A model generated the notes under the pieces. That model saw nothing but the letters and a program-made list of their open reading frames with translations, had not been told where the DNA came from and did not search any database. Shown here piece by piece: positions 1 through 10,541 of a stretch of DNA of 64,000 bases. The stretch comes from Butyrivibrio sp. MC2013 (GTDB taxonomy: Bacteria > Bacillota > Clostridia > Lachnospirales > Lachnospiraceae). Location: the NCBI RefSeq assembly GCF_000424585.1, contig NZ_KE384211.1:1-64000 (forward strand), in the 5' to 3' direction. Positions within the stretch are counted from its first letter, which is position 1. The number at the start of each line of letters is the position of its first letter. Made by a program: the position numbers and the translations under genes.

Positions 1-4
1 CTTA

Positions 5-11
5 CTCCTTT
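5..11 (-). promoter_or_regulatory. Ribosome binding site of a gene lying beyond the left edge
   Basis: On the minus strand, two bases after the tnpA stop codon, there is a full AAAGGAG. It has no start codon inside the window, so it most likely serves a gene that begins just past position 1. In IS605-type elements tnpB follows tnpA in this position, so a tnpB is a reasonable guess, but nothing of it is visible. Confidence 0.5.
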
Positions 12-13
12 CC

Positions 14-424
14 TTAATATGATTTACTCTGGTGCTCTATATATCGCCTTATATTTTCTTCAGATACAGAGCCTATTGTTTCGCAATAATATGAGTGATT
101 CCACAATTCCCCTTTCCATAGTTTGGATTTTATTTCAGGGAACTGTTCAAAAAGCTTTCTTCCTGTAATGCCCTTAAGGTACTTTACAATAGTTGTGACC
201 GATAACTTTGGTGGTGCAGTAACAAAGCAGTGGACATGATCCATTTCGCCACATTCAAAAAGCTTAACAGTGAACCCCTTCTCATCAGCAATTTGATTGA
301 TAAGCTGTTTTAGATACGTTTCAACTTCATTATTGAGTATCTTACGCCGATATTTGACAGACCATACCACATGGTAGTTGATATTGCACACAGAAGTGCG
401 GTAATGTATTAGATTTTCTTTCAT
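14..424 (-). CDS. tnpA: IS200/IS605 family single-strand transposase TnpA
   Basis: This is a Y1 HUH transposase that cuts and joins single-stranded ends of IS200/IS605 elements. The metal-binding HUH pair is visible as H-V-H in MDHVHCFVTAPP, and the catalytic tyrosine is in the C-terminal helix (RRYIEHQ). The start at 424 gives 136 residues, normal for the family. A longer frame starting at 517 would have to read through a terminator-like hairpin and is unlikely. The gene looks intact. Whether the element is a lone IS200 or an IS605 with tnpB cannot be seen, because the downstream side is outside the window. Confidence 0.92.
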   Translation of the reverse strand: MKENLIHYRTSVCNINYHVVWSVKYRRKILNNEVETYLKQLINQIADEKGFTVKLFECGEMDHVHCFVTAPPKLSVTTIVKYLKGITGRKLFEQFPEIKSKLWKGELWNHSYYCETIGSVSEENIRRYIEHQSKSY

Positions 425-452
425 ACACATAGTATAGCACAAATACAAGAAA

Positions 453-483
453 AAACAAACATACATTCGTTGTATGCTTGTTT
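453..483. terminator. Terminator-like hairpin upstream of tnpA
   Basis: Arms at 453-465 and 471-483 pair at 12 of 13 positions around the loop TTCGT. T-runs follow on both strands, so it could stop transcription in both directions. IS200-type elements are known to carry such a structure ahead of tnpA to block read-through from outside; that role here is inferred. Confidence 0.6.
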
Positions 484-517
484 TTTCTTTTGACCTCTTT
501 TTTTGTAGCGCTTTCAT

Positions 518-538
518 CTCGGCAATTGAATTGCCGAG
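518..538. repeat. Candidate left-end hairpin of the IS200/IS605 element
   Basis: A near-perfect palindrome, CTCGGCAATT, G, AATTGCCGAG, lies about 95 bases upstream of the tnpA start. IS200/IS605 ends are recognised as subterminal hairpins by TnpA, and this is in the right place for the left end. The exact cleavage site and element boundary cannot be fixed from one copy. The rest of the 425-858 space is AT-rich and holds only the palindrome at 577-601 and no convincing gene. Confidence 0.45.
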
Positions 539-570
539 GATTCCCGCTTGATGTCCTAAAACAATATAAG

Positions 571-605
571 GAGGTAGGTGTCAAAAGTTCCTTTTGACAC
601 CTTAT
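571..605. repeat. Dispersed palindromic repeat, copy 1
   Basis: A perfect 11-bp inverted repeat (GGTGTCAAAAG at 577-587 and CTTTTGACACC at 591-601, loop TTC) sits inside a 35-base stretch. The reverse complement of that stretch recurs at 16370-16403 with about three differences. It is close to the IS200/IS605 tnpA, so it may be part of that element's end or a palindrome moved by it. Confidence 0.65.
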
Positions 606-858
606 GACTAACGGATTGTTCCGTTTCTTCGAAACTCTCACAATCCTAAAACATTCGTAAATCCCCTCTAAATATCTGTTGCAAACATTATGCATATAAC
701 AGAAATGATATATATTAATACGATAATTAATATACTAAAATAACACACATCTCTTTGGATTTATGTTACAATCTTTATGTGAAATATACCGATATGAAAT
801 AATAATATATTAATAATATATAAACGTACATTTTTTCATGGCAGGAGGGGGTTGGATC

Positions 859-2223
859 ATGAGATTTAGCAGTTACGACATTGTGACCAGAAAGCTTAAT
901 AATGGCGGACATATCATACTAAGTGGCCTTACCGGACTCCTTGATCTCATTGATGAGGAGGCCTATGAACTGATAGATGCTCACAAGGATGATGAGTGCC
1001 TGTCAGACGAGCTTATTGATCAGATGGGAGATATTAAGGATCATTTCCTCAAAAGAGGTTATCTTACTGAATTAAGCCCTGCTGATGAGCTTAGAGCTGC
1101 TGCAAAGAAGGCTGCTGAAATGGAAGCTGAGCTCACAGGCGGCAAATGGTCTATTGTCCTGGTGCCCAATCTTGGCTGCAACTACAGATGCAGCTACTGC
1201 TTTGAAAAAGAGAGCGGTTATCCAAAGCGTACCATGAACAAAAAGCAGGTAGATGCTGTCTATGAAATCATAAAAGACAAGATTCCCTCCGGAGAATGTA
1301 TCACTCTCTATGGCGGTGAGCCTCTTGATGCCAGGAACAGAGAGTTGGTGGAATATATTGTCCAAAAAGGAAAAGAGCGTGGCTATTATTTCTTTGCTGT
1401 TACAAATGGTCATGGACTTGACAGCTATATGGACCTCCTTGGCAAAGATATGATCAGGATCCTGCAGATCACCCTTGACGGTCCCTCATACATACATGAC
1501 AAACGCAGAGTATCCACAGATGGCCTTCCTTCATATGACAAGATCGTCTCCAATATAGAAAGGGCACTAAAGGAAACCGGTGTTGAGATAAGGCTCAGGA
1601 TGAATCTGGATCACAGCAATGCTCCTTATATGATGGAGCTCCTCACAGATCTGGATAAAAGAGGGATCTTAAATAATAAAGCCGTGACTCTTGCAGCAAG
1701 TCCCGTTGTTGGCGATAGTGATGGAATGCTTAAATATGATGAAGTAAGAGGAATGGAAAAAGAAGCAGAAGCCAAATACCCAAAACTCAAAAATATTATA
1801 ATGGGCATGCTGCGAGGAACAAATGAAATGATCCTTCCTTCTTTGTTTTTTGAAGAGCCTATTGCTTTAAGGGTGACTGTATGCGGCGCAGCTCATTGCA
1901 TGAAGGTTTTTGCTGCAGACGGCAGCATATATTCCTGCTGGTCCTGCGTGGGCAATCCTGCAGAGAAGATTGGGCAGTTTGATGAAGCAGCAAATGTTGT
2001 CTGGGATGGCAAGGCGCTTGAGCGGTGGAAAAATAAGATGCTGGGCTCAAAGGAGCACTGCCTGAAATGCAAATATGCATTTATTTGCGGAGGCGGGTGC
2101 TTGAGGCCTGCTTTGTCAGGTGAAAAAGACGTAAATGCACATGACTGTGATTTTTATTACAGCAGGTTTGATGATCATCTGGCGAAGCTTACTGAAGAAT
2201 ATCTGTCCGCAGGGAACGAATAA
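859..2223 (+). CDS. Radical SAM/SPASM peptide maturase-like protein
   Basis: A 454-residue radical SAM enzyme of the SPASM type. The N-terminal ~80 residues resemble the PqqD/RRE-like recognition domain found in RiPP maturases (a GLTGLLDLID stretch, then a LKRGYL helix). The [4Fe-4S] SAM-binding cysteines are C107, C111 and C114 (CNYRCSYC), followed by the GGEP motif (YGGEPLDARN). The C-terminal third carries a SPASM-like cysteine set: CGAAHC from residue 342, CWSC, then HCLKCKYAFICGGGC and CDF. ATG at 859 is preferred over the in-frame 838 because AGGAGG at 842-847 lies correctly ahead of it. Two small paralogous genes follow in the same direction, separated by only 22-24 bases, which suggests that they are its substrates or partners. 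Exact substrate and chemistry are unknown. Confidence 0.85.
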   Translation: MRFSSYDIVTRKLNNGGHIILSGLTGLLDLIDEEAYELIDAHKDDECLSDELIDQMGDIKDHFLKRGYLTELSPADELRAAAKKAAEMEAELTGGKWSIVLVPNLGCNYRCSYCFEKESGYPKRTMNKKQVDAVYEIIKDKIPSGECITLYGGEPLDARNRELVEYIVQKGKERGYYFFAVTNGHGLDSYMDLLGKDMIRILQITLDGPSYIHDKRRVSTDGLPSYDKIVSNIERALKETGVEIRLRMNLDHSNAPYMMELLTDLDKRGILNNKAVTLAASPVVGDSDGMLKYDEVRGMEKEAEAKYPKLKNIIMGMLRGTNEMILPSLFFEEPIALRVTVCGAAHCMKVFAADGSIYSCWSCVGNPAEKIGQFDEAANVVWDGKALERWKNKMLGSKEHCLKCKYAFICGGGCLRPALSGEKDVNAHDCDFYYSRFDDHLAKLTEEYLSAGNE

Positions 2224-2245
2224 TTTATCTTGAAAGGAGGCTTTG

Positions 2246-2530
2246 ATGAAGAGTGAATCACTTAACAAGGCAGTAAAGCTGTCTTCTGCAGAGAGAAAGG
2301 CAATTGTCAAAGGTCTTGTCGATCTGGGCATTGACAGGGGCAAGATCGAAGGAATCCTTGGACCTATGATGGAGGGATCAGGATGTTCTGATAATACTCC
2401 CTGTGATCATCATATAAAGTGTGATGATTTCTTCAGTGTCAGTCCTGATTCTCTGGCTGAACTCAAGAAGGTTCTGGGCTCCAAGATCAAGGATCCCAGA
2501 GTAAATCCCATTATCAAGAAGCTTTTTTGA
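2246..2530 (+). CDS. Small Cys-containing protein, possible substrate of the radical SAM enzyme (paralogue 1)
   Basis: A 94-residue protein of no recognised family. It begins at ATG 2246 behind a strong AAAGGAGG, 22 bases after the radical SAM gene. It shares a clear pattern with the next gene: MKSxxxNKxVxL at the start, ER..IV..L...GID, a short Cys-bearing middle, then F.V.P, LKK.L and a KLF ending. Cysteines are at 47, 53 and 59, spaced six apart, in an acidic, histidine-containing stretch. No signal peptide or membrane segment is visible. It may be a RiPP precursor whose modified part is the middle, or a helper protein; the conserved C-terminus argues against a simple leader-core layout. 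Confidence 0.75.
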   Translation: MKSESLNKAVKLSSAERKAIVKGLVDLGIDRGKIEGILGPMMEGSGCSDNTPCDHHIKCDDFFSVSPDSLAELKKVLGSKIKDPRVNPIIKKLF

Positions 2531-2554
2531 TCTTATTGGAATATGAGGTGATAT

Positions 2555-2830
2555 ATGAAAAGTAATCCAATGAACAAAACGGTTACTTTGACAGCTAAGG
2601 AAAGAGACCAAATAGTTGAAAAACTTAAATTGGCAGGTATCGATAAGGAGCTGTTGGCTAAAGTCTTTGATTATCATCAGAAAGGCAGAGATGATTGTCA
2701 ATTGTTCATAGATAAATGCGGAGATTATTTCAATGTAGATCCCGGCACTATGGGCATGCTCAAAAAGGCTCTTGAAGCAAAAAAGATCGATATCAAGAAT
2801 CTTGATCCTGTTGTCAGAAAACTTTTCTGA
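2555..2830 (+). CDS. Small Cys-containing protein, possible substrate of the radical SAM enzyme (paralogue 2)
   Basis: A 91-residue paralogue of the preceding gene, with the same conserved N-terminal pattern (NKxVxLxxxER, IV, L, GID) and C-terminal pattern (YFNVDP, LKKAL, VVRKLF). The middle is divergent, with only two cysteines (48 and 55, seven apart). The ribosome site is GAGGTG. A strong terminator follows at 2868, so the three genes look like one transcript ending here. The pair probably arose by local duplication and diverged mostly in the Cys-bearing middle, which is what is expected if that part is the functional product. This is inference. Confidence 0.75.
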   Translation: MKSNPMNKTVTLTAKERDQIVEKLKLAGIDKELLAKVFDYHQKGRDDCQLFIDKCGDYFNVDPGTMGMLKKALEAKKIDIKNLDPVVRKLF

Positions 2831-2867
2831 TTTAAAACCCTGCGGCATATATTGAACTATGTTTTTT

Positions 2868-2920
2868 AAAAGGCGGAAGGTCTGTGACCTATCATGGATC
2901 CTCCGCCTTTTATTTTATTT
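2868..2920 (+). terminator. Terminator after the radical SAM cluster
   Basis: Ten-base arms AAAAGGCGGA (2868-2877) and TCCGCCTTTT (2902-2911) pair perfectly and are followed by a T-rich tract. The A/T symmetry means it could also work on the other strand. Confidence 0.8.
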
Positions 2921-2981
2921 ACGATATCTGTGTTATTTTTGATATAATTTGTTAGTACATATCTATTTATAAGGGAGACTT

Positions 2982-3836
2982 ATGAAAACAGCGATAGTTA
3001 TGGAAGGCGGGGCCATGAGAGGCCTCTTTACCTGCGGCGTGATAGATGTACTTATGGAGAAAAAGATCACCTTTGACGGCGCAATAGGTGTTTCTGCGGG
3101 AGCTACCTTTGGATGCAACTTAAAGTCCCATCAGATAGGCAGGGCTCTTAGATATAATAAGCGCTATGCACGAGACAAGAGGCTTAAGAGCTTCTCGTCC
3201 TGGATCAAGACCGGAGATCTTTTTAATGTAGATTTCTGCTATCATGAACTTCCCTTTAAGCTTGATATATGGGATGCTGACACCTTTGCTGCTGACCCCA
3301 TGGAATTCTATGTGGTGGCTACCAATGTGGAGACAGGTCTTCCTGCTTATCACAAGCTCACAGACGGGTGCGGCAAGGATCTGGAGTGGATCAGGGCTTC
3401 TGCGTCCATGCCCCTGGCGTCCAGACCTGTATCCATAGATGGAAGGCTGTATCTTGATGGCGGCAGCTCTGATTCCATTCCTCTTGGTTTTATGGAAGAG
3501 AGAGGCTATGACCATTTACTGGTGGTGGAGACACAGCCTGCGGACTATATCAAAAAGCCTCAGAGCTATATGGGGCTGATAAAAACTGTCTACAGAGATT
3601 ATCCCTCATTTGTACGTACCATCAAGGACAGGTATATAATGTACAATAATGAAAAAGCTTACATCCGAGAAAGAGAAAAGTCAGGTGATGTGCTGGTAAT
3701 AAGGCCCGCTTCTCCTCTTGATATCAGCCCCATGGAAAGGGATACTGACGAATTTGACAGGGTATATGAGGAGGGAAGAAAGGCTGCCCTTGAAATCCTG
3801 TCTAAAGAGAACTGGCTTAGTGAGCTTGGCATTTGA
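2982..3836 (+). CDS. Patatin-like phospholipase (RssA/YjjU-type)
   Basis: A 284-residue patatin-fold serine hydrolase, probably cytoplasmic and acting on acyl lipids. Visible motifs are the glycine-rich oxyanion loop (EGGAMRG), the nucleophile elbow GVSAG with the catalytic serine, and the aspartate of the Ser-Asp dyad in the DGG motif (LDGGSSDSIP). Length and order match bacterial stand-alone patatins. The ribosome site AAGGGAG precedes ATG 2982. It is followed within 36 bases by a histidine phosphatase gene, so the two are likely cotranscribed. Natural substrate unknown. Confidence 0.88.
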   Translation: MKTAIVMEGGAMRGLFTCGVIDVLMEKKITFDGAIGVSAGATFGCNLKSHQIGRALRYNKRYARDKRLKSFSSWIKTGDLFNVDFCYHELPFKLDIWDADTFAADPMEFYVVATNVETGLPAYHKLTDGCGKDLEWIRASASMPLASRPVSIDGRLYLDGGSSDSIPLGFMEERGYDHLLVVETQPADYIKKPQSYMGLIKTVYRDYPSFVRTIKDRYIMYNNEKAYIREREKSGDVLVIRPASPLDISPMERDTDEFDRVYEEGRKAALEILSKENWLSELGI

Positions 3837-3871
3837 CAACTAGCTTATTTAAATATAAAGGATGGATCACT

Positions 3872-4663
3872 ATGAGACTCATATTTGTAAGACATGCAGA
3901 ACCTGATTATGAACATGACAGCCTGACACCCAAGGGCTTTAGAGAAGCAGAGCTCTTATCTCACAGGGCTGCAGACTGGAAGGCTGACAAGATATATCTC
4001 TCACCTATGGGCAGGGCTCAGGCTACTGCCAGAGACAGCCTGAAGGCTATGGGCATGGAAGGTGAGACTTTGGACTGGCTGCAGGAATTTGACTATAAAA
4101 TCGCAGACCCGTATACAGGAAGAGAGAGAGTACCGTGGGACTATTTTCCGGAGTATTATACCACCCAGCAATATATGCTGGATCCGGAGAACTGGTATAA
4201 GGCTGAGATATACAGACAAAATCCCCGCATTGAAGAGATGTGGTTTACCATTTGCAAGGAGCTTGACAAGATACTGGCCTCTTACGGCTATGAGAGAAAG
4301 GATAAGTATTATATCTTCCGTGATCCTGATGGACCCGGTTATTCTTCAGAGCTGGATGATATCCAGACCGGGGGCCATATGGAATATAGTGTCAGGGACA
4401 AGGATGACGACAAGTGCATCATATTCTTTTGTCATCTGGGGGTAAGCTGCGTTATGCTGGCTCACCTGCTCAATCTTTCTCCTGTGACCCTTTGGCATAG
4501 CTTTTTTATGCCTGCTTCATCTGTAACTGTCCTTAATGCGGAGAAGCGCTATCACGGTCAGGCAGCTTTCAGGCTGCAGGCCTTTGGTGATACCAGCCAC
4601 TTGAGAATGGAAGGAGAGAGAGTATCAGGCTTTGGAGCTTTCTCCACTGTTTTTTCCAAGTGA
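3872..4663 (+). CDS. Histidine phosphatase family protein
   Basis: A 263-residue member of the phosphoglycerate mutase-like superfamily. The N-terminal catalytic RHA motif is visible (FVRHAEPDY), together with the second conserved region LSPMGRAQATA, whose arginine sits in the phosphate pocket. The second catalytic histidine is in FCHLGVSCVM. ATG 3872 is chosen because the conserved beta strand starts there and AAAGGATGG precedes it; an upstream in-frame start at 3833 would add a 13-residue tail overlapping the patatin gene. Substrate unknown. Confidence 0.85.
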   Translation: MRLIFVRHAEPDYEHDSLTPKGFREAELLSHRAADWKADKIYLSPMGRAQATARDSLKAMGMEGETLDWLQEFDYKIADPYTGRERVPWDYFPEYYTTQQYMLDPENWYKAEIYRQNPRIEEMWFTICKELDKILASYGYERKDKYYIFRDPDGPGYSSELDDIQTGGHMEYSVRDKDDDKCIIFFCHLGVSCVMLAHLLNLSPVTLWHSFFMPASSVTVLNAEKRYHGQAAFRLQAFGDTSHLRMEGERVSGFGAFSTVFSK

Positions 4664-4687: not shown

Positions 4688-5152
4688 ATGCAGACAGATC
4701 TTAATAATATTAAAAATAATAATAAAATCCTTCATGAACTGAAGGGTCAGCCTTATGATCGTAATGATCTGCGTCCCGGCCGTATTCGTGCTGAAGCCAT
4801 ATTGATCATCATTATCCTGACTATATCTCTTCTAATATACCTCTTCATGAATCTGGGTATGAGAAGCGGCAGCACTGTAGAAGTGAGCCTTGGCGGAGAG
4901 ATCATAGCTGTCTATCCCCTTGATAAAGACATGGAGTATAGGATAGAGTCCGAAGATGGGGGATATAATCTCCTGGTCATAAGTGGCGGTGAGTGCTATC
5001 TGTCTGATGCTGACTGTCCAGACCGGCTCTGTGTAAAGCAGGGGCATATAAGCCGTTCAGGCAGGTCTATCATCTGCCTTCCTCATAAGCTTATCATCAC
5101 CATCAGAGGAGATGAGGCGGATGGTGATGGTGTGGATTCTGTTGCCAGATAG
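4688..5152 (+). CDS. NusG domain II-containing membrane-anchored protein
   Basis: A 154-residue protein with a charged N-terminus, one transmembrane helix (about residues 37-55, ILIIIILTISLLIYLF) and an extracellular NusG domain II-like beta domain. In this domain the typical CPDRLCVKQG and ICLPHKL stretches are visible, with cysteines that could pair outside the cell. Proteins of this kind are typically next to the Gx transporter/HepS1-type gene, as here. Role unknown; often near quinone or FMN-related membrane genes in Clostridia. The ribosome site is weak. Confidence 0.85.
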   Translation: MQTDLNNIKNNNKILHELKGQPYDRNDLRPGRIRAEAILIIIILTISLLIYLFMNLGMRSGSTVEVSLGGEIIAVYPLDKDMEYRIESEDGGYNLLVISGGECYLSDADCPDRLCVKQGHISRSGRSIICLPHKLIITIRGDEADGDGVDSVAR

Positions 5153-5221: not shown

Positions 5222-5716
5222 ATGAACAATAGATCAGTGGCCAGGCTGGGGCTGATCCTTGCCTTGGCTCTTATATTGTCATATGTTGAATCCCTTATCC
5301 CCTTTGCTTTTGGCATACCGGGTATGAAGCTGGGCCTGCCTAATCTTGCAGTTGTGATAGCCCTCTATCTATTTGGCTGGAAATGGGCTCTTACAGTTAA
5401 TGTCCTCAGGATCATCCTTTCAGGCTTCCTTTTTGGCAATATGTTTGGGATCATTTATTCCCTGGCAGGAGCACTCACAAGCTTTGTTATAATGCTCCTT
5501 GTAAGGAGAATTGATATTTTCTCAATAAGAGGAGTGAGTATCTGCGGTGCAGTTAGCCATAATATAGCTCAGCTTTTGACTGCTGCCATTCTCATGGAGA
5601 CAGCGGGCATATTATATTATGCTCCATTTCTCCTTGCCGCCGGAGTGGTAACAGGGCTTATAATAGGTATAGCATCAGAGGGTACGCTGCGTATTGTCGG
5701 GAGACTTGGGCAGTAG
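5222..5716 (+). CDS. Gx transporter family / HepS1-like membrane protein
   Basis: A 164-residue hydrophobic protein of the Gx transporter family (also called heptaprenyl diphosphate synthase component I). It is related in layout to the substrate-binding S components of ECF transporters. About five membrane segments are visible, with the characteristic GMKLGLPNLAV and LRIILSGFLFGN stretches. It follows the NusG-II protein, the usual partner. It probably imports a prenyl- or quinone-related or vitamin-like molecule; the substrate is not established. Confidence 0.85.
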   Translation: MNNRSVARLGLILALALILSYVESLIPFAFGIPGMKLGLPNLAVVIALYLFGWKWALTVNVLRIILSGFLFGNMFGIIYSLAGALTSFVIMLLVRRIDIFSIRGVSICGAVSHNIAQLLTAAILMETAGILYYAPFLLAAGVVTGLIIGIASEGTLRIVGRLGQ

Positions 5717-8193: not shown

Positions 8194-9525
8194 ATGTCAG
8201 ATATTATTAGATCAAAACGTCCTGAGCTGCTGGCTCCTGCAGGCAATTACGAAGCATTTCTTGCTGCGGTAAATGCAGGAGCTGATGCGGTCTATCTGGG
8301 CGGTAACAGATTTGGAGCAAGGGCATATGCTGATAATTTTGACACTGAGCATGTTATCAGAGCTATTGATTATGCCCATATCTACGGTCGCAAGGTCTAT
8401 TTGACCGTTAATACCTTAATTAAAGAAGAAGAATACCTGGACCTGTACGATTATTTGCAGCCCTTTGCTGATGCCGGGCTTGACGGAGTGATCGTACAGG
8501 ATTTTGGTGTATTTGGATTTATCAGAGAGCATTTTCCGGGGGTGGAACTTCATACTTCTACCCAGATGGCTGTTACAGGACCATATGGCGCGCGTCTCCT
8601 GAAGAAAGCCGGCGCAGTCCGCGTGGTACCTGCAAGAGAGCTGTCGCTGGAGGAAATGAAAGCTATAAGACGTGATGCGGATATTGAAGTTGAAGCCTTT
8701 GTGCATGGCGCTATGTGCTATTCATATTCAGGTATCTGTCTCTTCTCGGGAATAGTGGGAGGCAGGTCCGGCAACAGGGGACGCTGTGCCCAGCCCTGCC
8801 GTCTGCCCTATACTGTGGAAACGGGTGGCAGGATAAGGGGCAAGGATGGCAAATATTATCCCTTGTCCCTCAAGGACATGTGCACCATAGAATTCCTGCC
8901 CCTTCTTATCGAAGCCGGTATTGATTCTTTCAAGATAGAAGGCAGGATGAAGAAGGCTGAATACGCCGCAGGTGTGACCTCTATATATCGCAAGTATATA
9001 GACAGATACTATGAATATGGTACTGAAGGCGCAAGAGTCAGTGCTGAGGATATGGATATTCTCAGGTCCCTCTATATCAGATCAGAGATCAGTGAGGGCT
9101 ATTATAAGAGGCACAACGGCAGAGAAATGGTGACTCTCACAGCTCCTGGATATGAAGGCTCTGATGACGCGGTACTGAAGATGGTCAGAGAGCGGTATCT
9201 TGTAGGCGAAAAGAAGCTAAAGATCAGCCTAAAGGCTGTGCTTCATGAAGGAGAAGAGTCTGTACTCTCTATCAGCTGCGGTAATGCCAGCTATGAAGCA
9301 AAAGGGGCTGCGCCAGAGCCTGCTGCCAATAGGCCCATGGACAGGGAGACTATCCTGAAATCTCTATGTAAATTCGGCAACAGCTTCTTTGAAGTGGATG
9401 AAAACGATTGCCGTCTGGATATCAGGGATAGCGGTAATGGAATCTTCATCCCCGTAAAGGAACTCAATGATCTGAGAAGAGCTGCTGCGCAGGGACTTAT
9501 GAAAGAGCTGTCCCGGGGAGTATGA
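8194..9525 (+). CDS. U32 family protein, N-terminal half (prephenate-dependent RNA hydroxylation type)
   Basis: A 443-residue protein of peptidase family U32. Relatives (TrhP, RlhA) take part in prephenate-dependent hydroxylation of tRNA or 23S rRNA; older annotation calls them collagenase-like peptidases. Family motifs are visible: ELLAPAGNYEAFLAAVNAGADAVYLGG, HTSTQMAVTG, EAFVHGAMCYSYSGICLFS, and the iron-sulfur type cysteines in GRCAQPCRLPY. It ends with a partial DUF3656-like region. Long U32 proteins continue with a second module. Here that module is a separate gene whose ATG overlaps this stop codon, so the product is probably a two-chain version. Confidence 0.88.
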   Translation: MSDIIRSKRPELLAPAGNYEAFLAAVNAGADAVYLGGNRFGARAYADNFDTEHVIRAIDYAHIYGRKVYLTVNTLIKEEEYLDLYDYLQPFADAGLDGVIVQDFGVFGFIREHFPGVELHTSTQMAVTGPYGARLLKKAGAVRVVPARELSLEEMKAIRRDADIEVEAFVHGAMCYSYSGICLFSGIVGGRSGNRGRCAQPCRLPYTVETGGRIRGKDGKYYPLSLKDMCTIEFLPLLIEAGIDSFKIEGRMKKAEYAAGVTSIYRKYIDRYYEYGTEGARVSAEDMDILRSLYIRSEISEGYYKRHNGREMVTLTAPGYEGSDDAVLKMVRERYLVGEKKLKISLKAVLHEGEESVLSISCGNASYEAKGAAPEPAANRPMDRETILKSLCKFGNSFFEVDENDCRLDIRDSGNGIFIPVKELNDLRRAAAQGLMKELSRGV

Positions 9526-10541
9526 TAATGCCTGGTAAAAAAGGAAATAGCAAGAAGAAAATTAGTAAAATAAATAGTAAAACTAATAGAAAATCAAATA
9601 ATGAAATAGATAACAAAAATAAACGCGCTGGTAAGCCTTCTTCTGAAAAAGGCTATATTAAGCCTGGTCTTCCCTTTCATCTGCTAATAGCAAGTCTGTC
9701 TCAGCTAAAGGCATATCTTGACAGTTTCTTTAAGGCAGAAAGGATATATATAGACTATCATCTCTTAATGGATACGGGGCTAAGGGAGCAGCTTACAGCT
9801 ATTGCTGATTCGGATACAGAGATATGCTGCGCGCTTCCTTATATGCTAAGGAATGAAGATAAGCTAAAGGGATATGCTATTATAGACCGTATCGCAGACA
9901 GTTATGGAGATATACTAAAGGGCTTCCTTGTGAGGAACCTGGAGGAACTGGGTTATCTGACAGAGAAGGGCACAGAGCTTAAGCTTGTAGCTGATCATTG
10001 CATCTATTCCTGGAATCATGCTTCTGCTGCCTTTTTGAGTGCTGATCTGTCAGTATCAGAGATCACGGTGCCCCTTGAGCTCAACTCTCATGAGATAGCG
10101 GATCTATTAAAAGGCATCAGGACCACGAATGCAGAGAATAGAGAAGGAGAACTTCCTGTTTCCCTTTGTATATACGGCAGGATACCTATGATGGTATCTG
10201 CAGGCTGCGTTAAGAAGACTGCTGACAAGTGCTCGGGACTCACCGGCGAGAATAATACAGAGTATTCCTATATCACTGACAGGAAGAGGAACAGGATGCC
10301 GGTCCTGTGCGACTGCCAAAGCTGCCTTAATGTAATATATAATTCGGTGCCCCTCTCTCTTCATAAGCAAATGGGAGATATAGACAGATTGAAGGGGATA
10401 ACAGCTCTCAGGATAGATCTGACAAATGAATCAGGGGCTGAGACGGCGGCTGTCCTTCGTTTTTTTGGAGGAAAAGCCGGGGGAGATGAAGCTCCCTGCA
10501 AGGATTATACAACCGGACATTTCCGTAGAGGGACTATGTGA
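9522..10541 (+). CDS. C-terminal module of a split U32 protein
   Basis: A 339-residue protein that resembles the second half of long U32 proteins. After a basic, Asn/Lys-rich start (about residues 1-45, with many NK and KK pairs and AT-rich codons) comes a TIM-barrel-like region. It ends in conserved features of the long form: a CxxC-type cluster (LCDCQSCLNVIYNSVPLSL) and the terminal YTTGHFRRG. The start overlaps the previous stop as ATGA, indicating translational coupling; ATG 9528 is an alternative. It could be a genuine two-subunit arrangement or an old gene fission. Confidence 0.72.
   Translation: MIMPGKKGNSKKKISKINSKTNRKSNNEIDNKNKRAGKPSSEKGYIKPGLPFHLLIASLSQLKAYLDSFFKAERIYIDYHLLMDTGLREQLTAIADSDTEICCALPYMLRNEDKLKGYAIIDRIADSYGDILKGFLVRNLEELGYLTEKGTELKLVADHCIYSWNHASAAFLSADLSVSEITVPLELNSHEIADLLKGIRTTNAENREGELPVSLCIYGRIPMMVSAGCVKKTADKCSGLTGENNTEYSYITDRKRNRMPVLCDCQSCLNVIYNSVPLSLHKQMGDIDRLKGITALRIDLTNESGAETAAVLRFFGGKAGGDEAPCKDYTTGHFRRGTM

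Follow-up and report, generated by a model that had tools for sequence, protein, structure and literature searches.

The first 64,000 nucleotides of contig NZ_KE384211.1 of Butyrivibrio sp. MC2013, hereafter the window (its first base is base 1 of the contig, G000:C2), carry a radical SAM enzyme gene directly followed by genes for two small cysteine-bearing proteins. Based on comparisons with other genomes, we consider it likely that these three genes belong together as a radical SAM RiPP cassette whose family is uncatalogued, with leader-core-follower precursors and a probably thioether-forming enzyme. The loop in the middle of the small proteins is probably the part that the enzyme modifies, since the ends are conserved, the Cys-bearing middle varies and the layout is repeated in relatives.

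The cassette and its recurrence

The first gene (859..2223, + strand) encodes a radical SAM/SPASM peptide maturase of 454 aa that starts with MRFSSY and has relatives at 50-51% and 35% identity. It is followed on the same strand by two putative precursors: small protein 1 (2246..2530, 94 aa, Cys 47/53/59), which has homologues at other loci, and its paralogue small protein 2 (2555..2830, 91 aa, Cys 48/55). The enzyme stop and small protein 1 are separated by 22 bp, and the two small proteins by 24 bp. The original prediction, made from the same DNA, had these coordinates, lengths and cysteine positions right. An alternative in-frame ATG for the enzyme lies at 838; we favour 859 because of an AGGAGG at 843-848 and because MRFSSY is common to four relatives.

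The strong terminator noted at the end of the cassette corresponds to a predicted hairpin. RNA folding gives a terminator-like hairpin with U-rich sequence 3′ of it (2867..2912, + strand; -29.9 kcal/mol for 100 bases folded, z -4.6, none of 200 shuffles as good). A consensus terminator scan of 500-3000 listed no terminator, perhaps because the stem of this hairpin is long and interrupted. No Rfam RNA element matched in 1-4000. Left of the cassette, close to the contig start, is an IS200-type transposase (14-517, - strand; PF01797, 138 bits), which may point to mobility. On the right follow a patatin-like protein, a histidine phosphatase, a NusG II-domain protein and a heptaprenyl diphosphate synthase component I-like membrane protein.

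Three further close loci, L017, L018 and L019, encode enzymes 50-51% identical to that of the window. L017 is from a Butyrivibrio-labelled genome of the same genus; L018 and L019 are from Clostridiales of goat and water buffalo omasum. At all four close loci homologous small proteins are found directly downstream on the same strand: two in the window, three at L017, one at L018, where it overlaps the enzyme end, and two at L019, the first beginning 19 bp past the enzyme. The conserved co-occurrence with middle cysteines that had been proposed as a check is therefore found for eight small proteins at four of four close loci.

The carrier family is small, with four close loci and one distant locus. 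When 84,980 species, represented by one genome each, were scanned for two conserved peptide patterns, seven related loci emerged: the three close ones named above (50-51% identity) and another four, at 25-28%, from Ensifer/Sinorhizobium. As a group, the 79 genus genomes were queried with the enzyme alone, and five of them gave a hit at E 1e-30 or better: the close ones are the own genome and that of L017 (G472), and the other three (L014-L016) are at 31-32% identity, beside double-glycine peptides. Enzyme profile A4 matched 3 of 397 family genomes at 1e-60 (own, G009, G079), 3 of 115 genomes of the L018 family (those of L018 and L019, and G831) and, at 1e-80, 1 of 391 class genomes (own). With profile A6, 5 of 216 order genomes matched at 1e-60 (own, G462, G404, G479, G507). 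These genus, family, order and class samples overlap.

The distant locus, L039 (genome G009), has an enzyme of 35% identity and, 48 bp downstream, a protein of 99 residues with Cys at 50/56/60, 39 residues past the last Cys and no aromatic residue after it. Homology of this protein to the others is not established: its score of 9.6 bits (best stretch 8.8) was reached or exceeded by 4 of 1000 self-shuffles and by seven frames that are unrelated or lie in a different position, including two double-glycine peptides of L040. What ties L039 to the family is only the layout of its small protein, the position of that protein and the enzyme clade.

The small proteins were also used as queries. Within the own genome, small protein 1 found besides itself only small protein 2 (E 1.9e-8; matches listed to E 0.01), and small protein 2 found only small protein 1 (E 1e-8; listed to E 10). 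Among 397 family genomes, small protein 1 matched outside its own genome only with an 18.7-bit stretch in a 467-residue frame. A five-protein profile found in 392 order genomes, besides the own, only three 17-18-bit stretches in frames of >900 residues. With a seven-protein profile, the three other carrier genomes gave, beyond the cassettes, two stretches in G472 (18.2 and 15.7 bits) in unrelated frames. Homologues that are common without the enzyme, which would count against a substrate role, were thus not seen in the samples searched, and none of the genomes sampled has a convincing homologue outside the enzyme's neighbourhood.

Anatomy and possible fate of the small proteins

Small proteins 1 and 2 are paralogues, as originally proposed (35% identity, E 4e-15 in a single BLASTP comparison). 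In small protein 1, the alignments (A5 for the N-terminal part) delimit a conserved, leader-like N-terminal part (approximately residues 1-40, 2246..2365), which resembles the leaders at locus L041, a variable Cys middle (residues 47-59, C-x5-C-x5-C, 2384..2422) and a conserved, follower-like C-terminal part (residues 60-94, 2423..2527), all on the + strand. The variable Cys middle of small protein 2, from the same kind of alignment, covers residues 48-55 (C-x6-C, 2696..2719, + strand).

The eight small proteins of the four close loci have 91-123 residues. Invariant among them, in small protein 1 numbering, are M1, K2, S3, N7, L24, G28, I29, D30, C59 and L73. The number of cysteines ranges from 2 to 7 per protein, and all 31 are located in the variable middle, between residues 46 and 84. 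After the last Cys 35-39 residues follow, with an aromatic residue at +3 or +4 in eight of eight. A GG precedes the last Cys in half of them (4/8), not including the window proteins. Small protein 2 has two Cys only and no His in its core. A conserved leader, a variable core and a conserved follower beside a modifying enzyme are thus found for 8 proteins at 4 loci, and the variable region in the middle with a conserved C-terminal part, singled out as odd in the original prediction, is still an oddity.

The DNA of close paralogues has the same three-part structure. The first two paralogues of L017 are identical at 104/117 bases in the leader (the first 117 bases) and 96/117 in the follower with 0 gap columns, and at 31/44 bases in the core with 23 gap columns. 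For the L019 pair, the values are 93/117 and 83/117 with 0 gap columns for leader and follower, and 25/39 with 12 gap columns for the core. Gap-free ends around a gapped middle are found in four of the 28 protein pairs, the closest ones (the first two of L017, the L018 protein with both of L019, and the two of L019); more distant pairs have gaps in the ends as well. Since the middle contains the gaps and the aligned core bases (53-83%) are not always below the ends in identity, core variability is chiefly in length. The L018 protein (9445-9813) carries its Cys core motif twice in tandem, with 40/63 bases identical between the copies.

An AF2 model of small protein 1 has a mean pLDDT of 64.7 and two better halves, with residues 41-60 under 50. 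The first half contains a strand (10-13) and helices 14-26 and 31-38, the second half a strand (62-65) and helices 67-80 and 88-91. A fold search with this model returned 24 PDB matches, none significant (best E 2.1). When PDB sequences were searched with a profile, the best match (E 0.0027) was a designed protein aligned over 34 positions, which we judged to be chance. No significant NCBIfam match was found for the six small proteins scanned out of nine (both of the window, the third of L017, that of L018, the second of L019 and that of L039), and PHROGs gave nothing below E 0.2.

The original prediction also remarked on the absence of a protease or transporter next door. This oddity stands: with ORFs inspected by eye, no protease or peptide exporter was recognised next to the cassette in the window, or within 8 kb on each side of it at L017-L019. 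Pfam was also run on some neighbours, namely two downstream and two upstream at L017 and one on each side at L018 and L019; the downstream gene at L019 encodes a solute-binding protein. A single C39 peptidase match occurs in the own genome, on a different contig, so that export from elsewhere is possible. This C39 match is approximately 7 kb from another radical SAM gene (G000:C9:8106-8495 and C9:964-1431), possibly a second RiPP cluster.

No neighbour is common to all four close loci (blastp, 100 ORFs of 90 aa or more). Besides pairs between L018 and L019, one neighbour pair is shared: a NusG II-domain protein and a heptaprenyl diphosphate synthase component I, 28-36% similar across the window (4688-5152 and 5222-5716), L018 (1936-3023) and L019 (2298-3277). 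L017 has none of the neighbours shared. As the shared pair follows the cassette in the window and precedes it at L018 and L019, we count these genes as housekeeping neighbours and not as cassette parts.

These results bear on whether the small proteins are precursors at all. They could instead be modified and left uncut, acting inside the cell as mature proteins that are folded and have one loop cross-linked, a reading for which QhpC and QhpD offer a precedent (PMC8172795). The conservation of both ends, the two better-predicted halves of the AF2 model and the lack of a recognised protease or peptide exporter near the four loci agree with it. We nevertheless think it unlikely: the mean pLDDT is only 64.7 with no significant fold match, no partner protein is conserved beside all four loci, and a middle that varies in length and copy number would better suit diversified products than one cellular function.

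Our preferred reading, a RiPP cassette, builds on the predicted substrate role of the pair. The original prediction is supported in part: the substrate role gains considerable support from recurrence at four of four close loci in 1-3 copies with variable Cys middles, from the duplicated core of one protein, from leaders that resemble those of the short Cys peptides at L041 and from the lack of convincing homologues elsewhere in the samples searched. More tentatively, and on balance doubtfully, the precursors could be folded mini-proteins in which leader and follower form a scaffold that holds one exchangeable loop stapled by a single radical SAM enzyme, a natural form of loop grafting. The loop would then stay on the scaffold or be cut out later, and new loops would arise via core swapping and core duplication.

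The enzyme and related loci

The enzyme matches PF04055 with 55.9 bits (cut-off 29.5) and the SPASM domain model TIGR04085 with 50.4 bits (cut-off 27; match 342-427). In an alignment with four relatives, the CX3CX2C radical SAM cluster motif (C107, C111 and C114; residues 107-114, 1177..1200, + strand) and all seven cysteines of the SPASM region (C342, C360, C401, C404, C410, C414 and C430; residues 342-430, 1882..2148, + strand) are invariant in 5/5 enzymes. The predicted SPASM-like cysteines are confirmed by these ten invariant residues and the TIGR04085 score.

Among the best 25 of 78 NCBIfam families, the best maturase model is TIGR04463 (151.5 bits, cut-off 525), together with Clo7bot (130.4/600), CefB (125.3/600), geopeptide (117/400), PapB (106.9/340) and SCIFF (95.3/425) maturases, and no maturase cut-off is reached. 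As the nearest curated models are peptide maturases, all below cut-off, we regard the enzyme as a peptide maturase by kin with no named family. In a tree of 17 enzymes, the window, L017, L018, L019 and L039 form one clade with support 99/97, within which the four close loci form a clade with support 98/99. This tree includes one TIGR04463 row and one Clo7bot row, and no CefB, PapB or SCIFF row.

These scores also speak to the idea of a divergent member of a curated family (TIGR04463, CefB, Clo7bot, PapB or SCIFF maturase) with precursors that have simply acquired a C-terminal tail. Such models are indeed among the best-scoring ones for the enzyme and its relatives. Their scores are far under the cut-offs, however, the window small proteins match no NCBIfam model, and the five-locus clade is apart from the TIGR04463 and Clo7bot rows of the tree, so we find this origin quite improbable.

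The best solved relative of the enzyme is 5wgg, which we take to be CteB, a SCIFF thioether maturase. Positions 17-427 of a four-enzyme profile align with chain 5wgg_A, beginning at residue 15 of that chain, and the alignments of some NCBIfam maturase models with the enzyme begin at residues 1-4. RRE/PqqD Pfam models have no match in the enzyme, and its AF2 model (mean pLDDT 50.1) has an N-terminus under pLDDT 50. The RRE-like character proposed for this N-terminus has only indirect support.

Other origins were considered and rejected. Three IMG/VR scans, run with the enzyme or with alignments of it, found no relative that would point to a viral origin. For a defence system, PADLOC matched the radical SAM core only (three viperin models, best 49.8 bits) and found nothing for the small proteins. 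On plasmids, 87 records match the enzyme, all with <60% identity (best listed 174 bits).

Related enzymes with small peptides provide a context for the leader. Loci L041 (892-1418, - strand) and L042 (2888-3538) each have three peptides of 45-68 residues directly behind the enzyme, whose Cys lie towards the C-terminus and which lack a follower; none of the six is significantly matched in NCBIfam. Their enzymes are related to profile A6 over the whole length (285.5 and 273.5 bits). An 'LN' near the leader start is common to these peptides and the cassette small proteins. The leader profile of the eight proteins scored 20.9 in hhalign against the L041 leaders, with 0/150 column shuffles as high, and was not significant against the L042 leaders (12/150 shuffles as high), which in turn align with those of L041 (0/150).

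The same leader profile scored 17.2 (0/150 shuffles as high) against ten double-glycine leaders, one row of which (L014_853) had been trimmed to four residues; the double-glycine peptides at L014-L016 we assume to be Nif11-like. Part of the leader similarity may therefore be generic helix similarity. In a Nif11-type test, the window proteins gave no significant family match and had no GG. The likeness to the L041 leaders supports, but does not prove, a role of the N-terminal part as a RiPP leader. We also considered an internal duplication in which the follower is a second leader (hhalign 15.9, with 0/200 and 0/150 column shuffles as high) and do not claim it, because in the same test the leader scores 17.2 with double-glycine leaders and generic helix similarity explains the result equally.

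Several of the loci have features of their own. L014, L015 and L016, from three genomes of the window's genus, have one layout in common: two radical SAM genes together with two double-glycine peptides. L045 (1477-3018), on an 18.8 kb Muribaculaceae plasmid whose record is unannotated, has a radical SAM/SPASM maturase directly followed by a 47-residue Cys peptide. L040 (691-4278) combines a radical SAM/SPASM maturase with several double-glycine peptides and a downstream ORF that, judged by eye, resembles an ABC transporter of the C39 type. Next to two distantly related maturases from Rhodococcus, the annotation shows no small Cys protein. Substrates after the enzyme had originally been listed as an oddity, which no longer holds given the peptides behind the enzyme at L041, L042 and L045.

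That the small proteins are metal-binding, regulatory or adaptor proteins of the enzyme, with a Cys/His middle (C-x5-C-x-H-xn-C) that binds zinc or a cluster, fits the C-x5-C-x-H-like spacing in several of them, but is very improbable given the two-Cys core without His of small protein 2, Cys counts from 2 to 7 with one core duplicated, and leaders like those of the short Cys peptides at L041.

For the RiPP cassette, we propose the following route. The leader (residues 1 to approximately 40) would be bound by the N-terminal domain of the enzyme, and the SAM radical and the SPASM auxiliary clusters would cross-link the middle-loop cysteines to residues close by, with ranthipeptide-like thioethers as the most likely bonds. 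The follower, formed by the 35-39 residues past the last Cys, would hold the loop in place together with the leader, and paralogues with exchangeable middles would allow one enzyme to make several products. The thioether chemistry is suggested by the nearest maturase models and their chemistry as published (PMC9413430 for PapB; PMC8172795 for QhpD and SCIFF). A Cys-Xn-Asp/Glu pair (n 0-6) in the core is absent in one of the eight proteins, the second of L019; PapB-type chemistry can therefore not be general, and there is no constant acceptor residue.

Should the loop be what is modified, a single radical SAM enzyme would tolerate very different Cys loops given the right flanks. The cassette would then offer a compact and testable case of radical stapling that acts on loops within proteins and not on peptide tails, and represent an uncatalogued RiPP family in Clostridia with two carriers from the ruminant omasum. 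The lack of a recognised neighbouring protease or peptide exporter also raises the question of whether the product ever leaves its scaffold.

Comparison with known systems

Ranthipeptides (PapA/PapB freyrasin and SCIFF) resemble the cassette in having a SPASM radical SAM maturase, an N-terminal leader and a Cys-bearing core. The cassette differs in that its core is internal, with 35-39 residues after it, in that no Cys-Xn-Asp/Glu pair is constant, and in that the enzyme is under the curated PapB (106.9 vs 340) and SCIFF (95.3 vs 425) cut-offs. PapA carries a CX3D motif according to PMC9413430.

The best-scoring maturase models are those of TIGR04463/CefA-CefB and Clo7bot. A Clo7bot locus, L048, is like the cassette in having several small Cys targets per enzyme. 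Its annotated Clo7bot peptides have 41-50 aa, precede the enzyme and have the Cys region at their end, whereas the cassette proteins have 91-123 aa, are located after the enzyme and contain a conserved C-terminal part. L041 and L042 share with the cassette an uncatalogued related enzyme and peptides directly downstream; unlike in the cassette, these peptides are short (45-68 aa), with a C-terminal Cys region and no follower.

In darobactin (DarA/DarE), a core modified by a radical SAM enzyme is located between leader and follower, and the precursor is cleaved by E. coli host proteins, as stated in PMC9055067. The latter offers a precedent for release without a dedicated protease. Unlike in the cassette, core and follower of darobactin together have 10 residues, and its chemistry involves Trp/Lys and not Cys.

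The radical SAM enzyme QhpD makes thioether links inside the small protein QhpC, the gamma subunit of quinohemoprotein amine dehydrogenase (PMC8172795). QhpC is a single dehydrogenase subunit with its own operon, whereas the cassette has no such operon and several variable paralogues.

A Hungate1000 survey used TIGR03973 as its rule for ranthipeptides (PMC13289728). A survey of this kind would presumably miss the cassette precursors. No description of this layout was found in the literature searched, with most subscription papers outside that search. Among the related loci compared here, peptides behind the enzyme are not unusual; it is the long conserved follower that is distinctive of the cassette.
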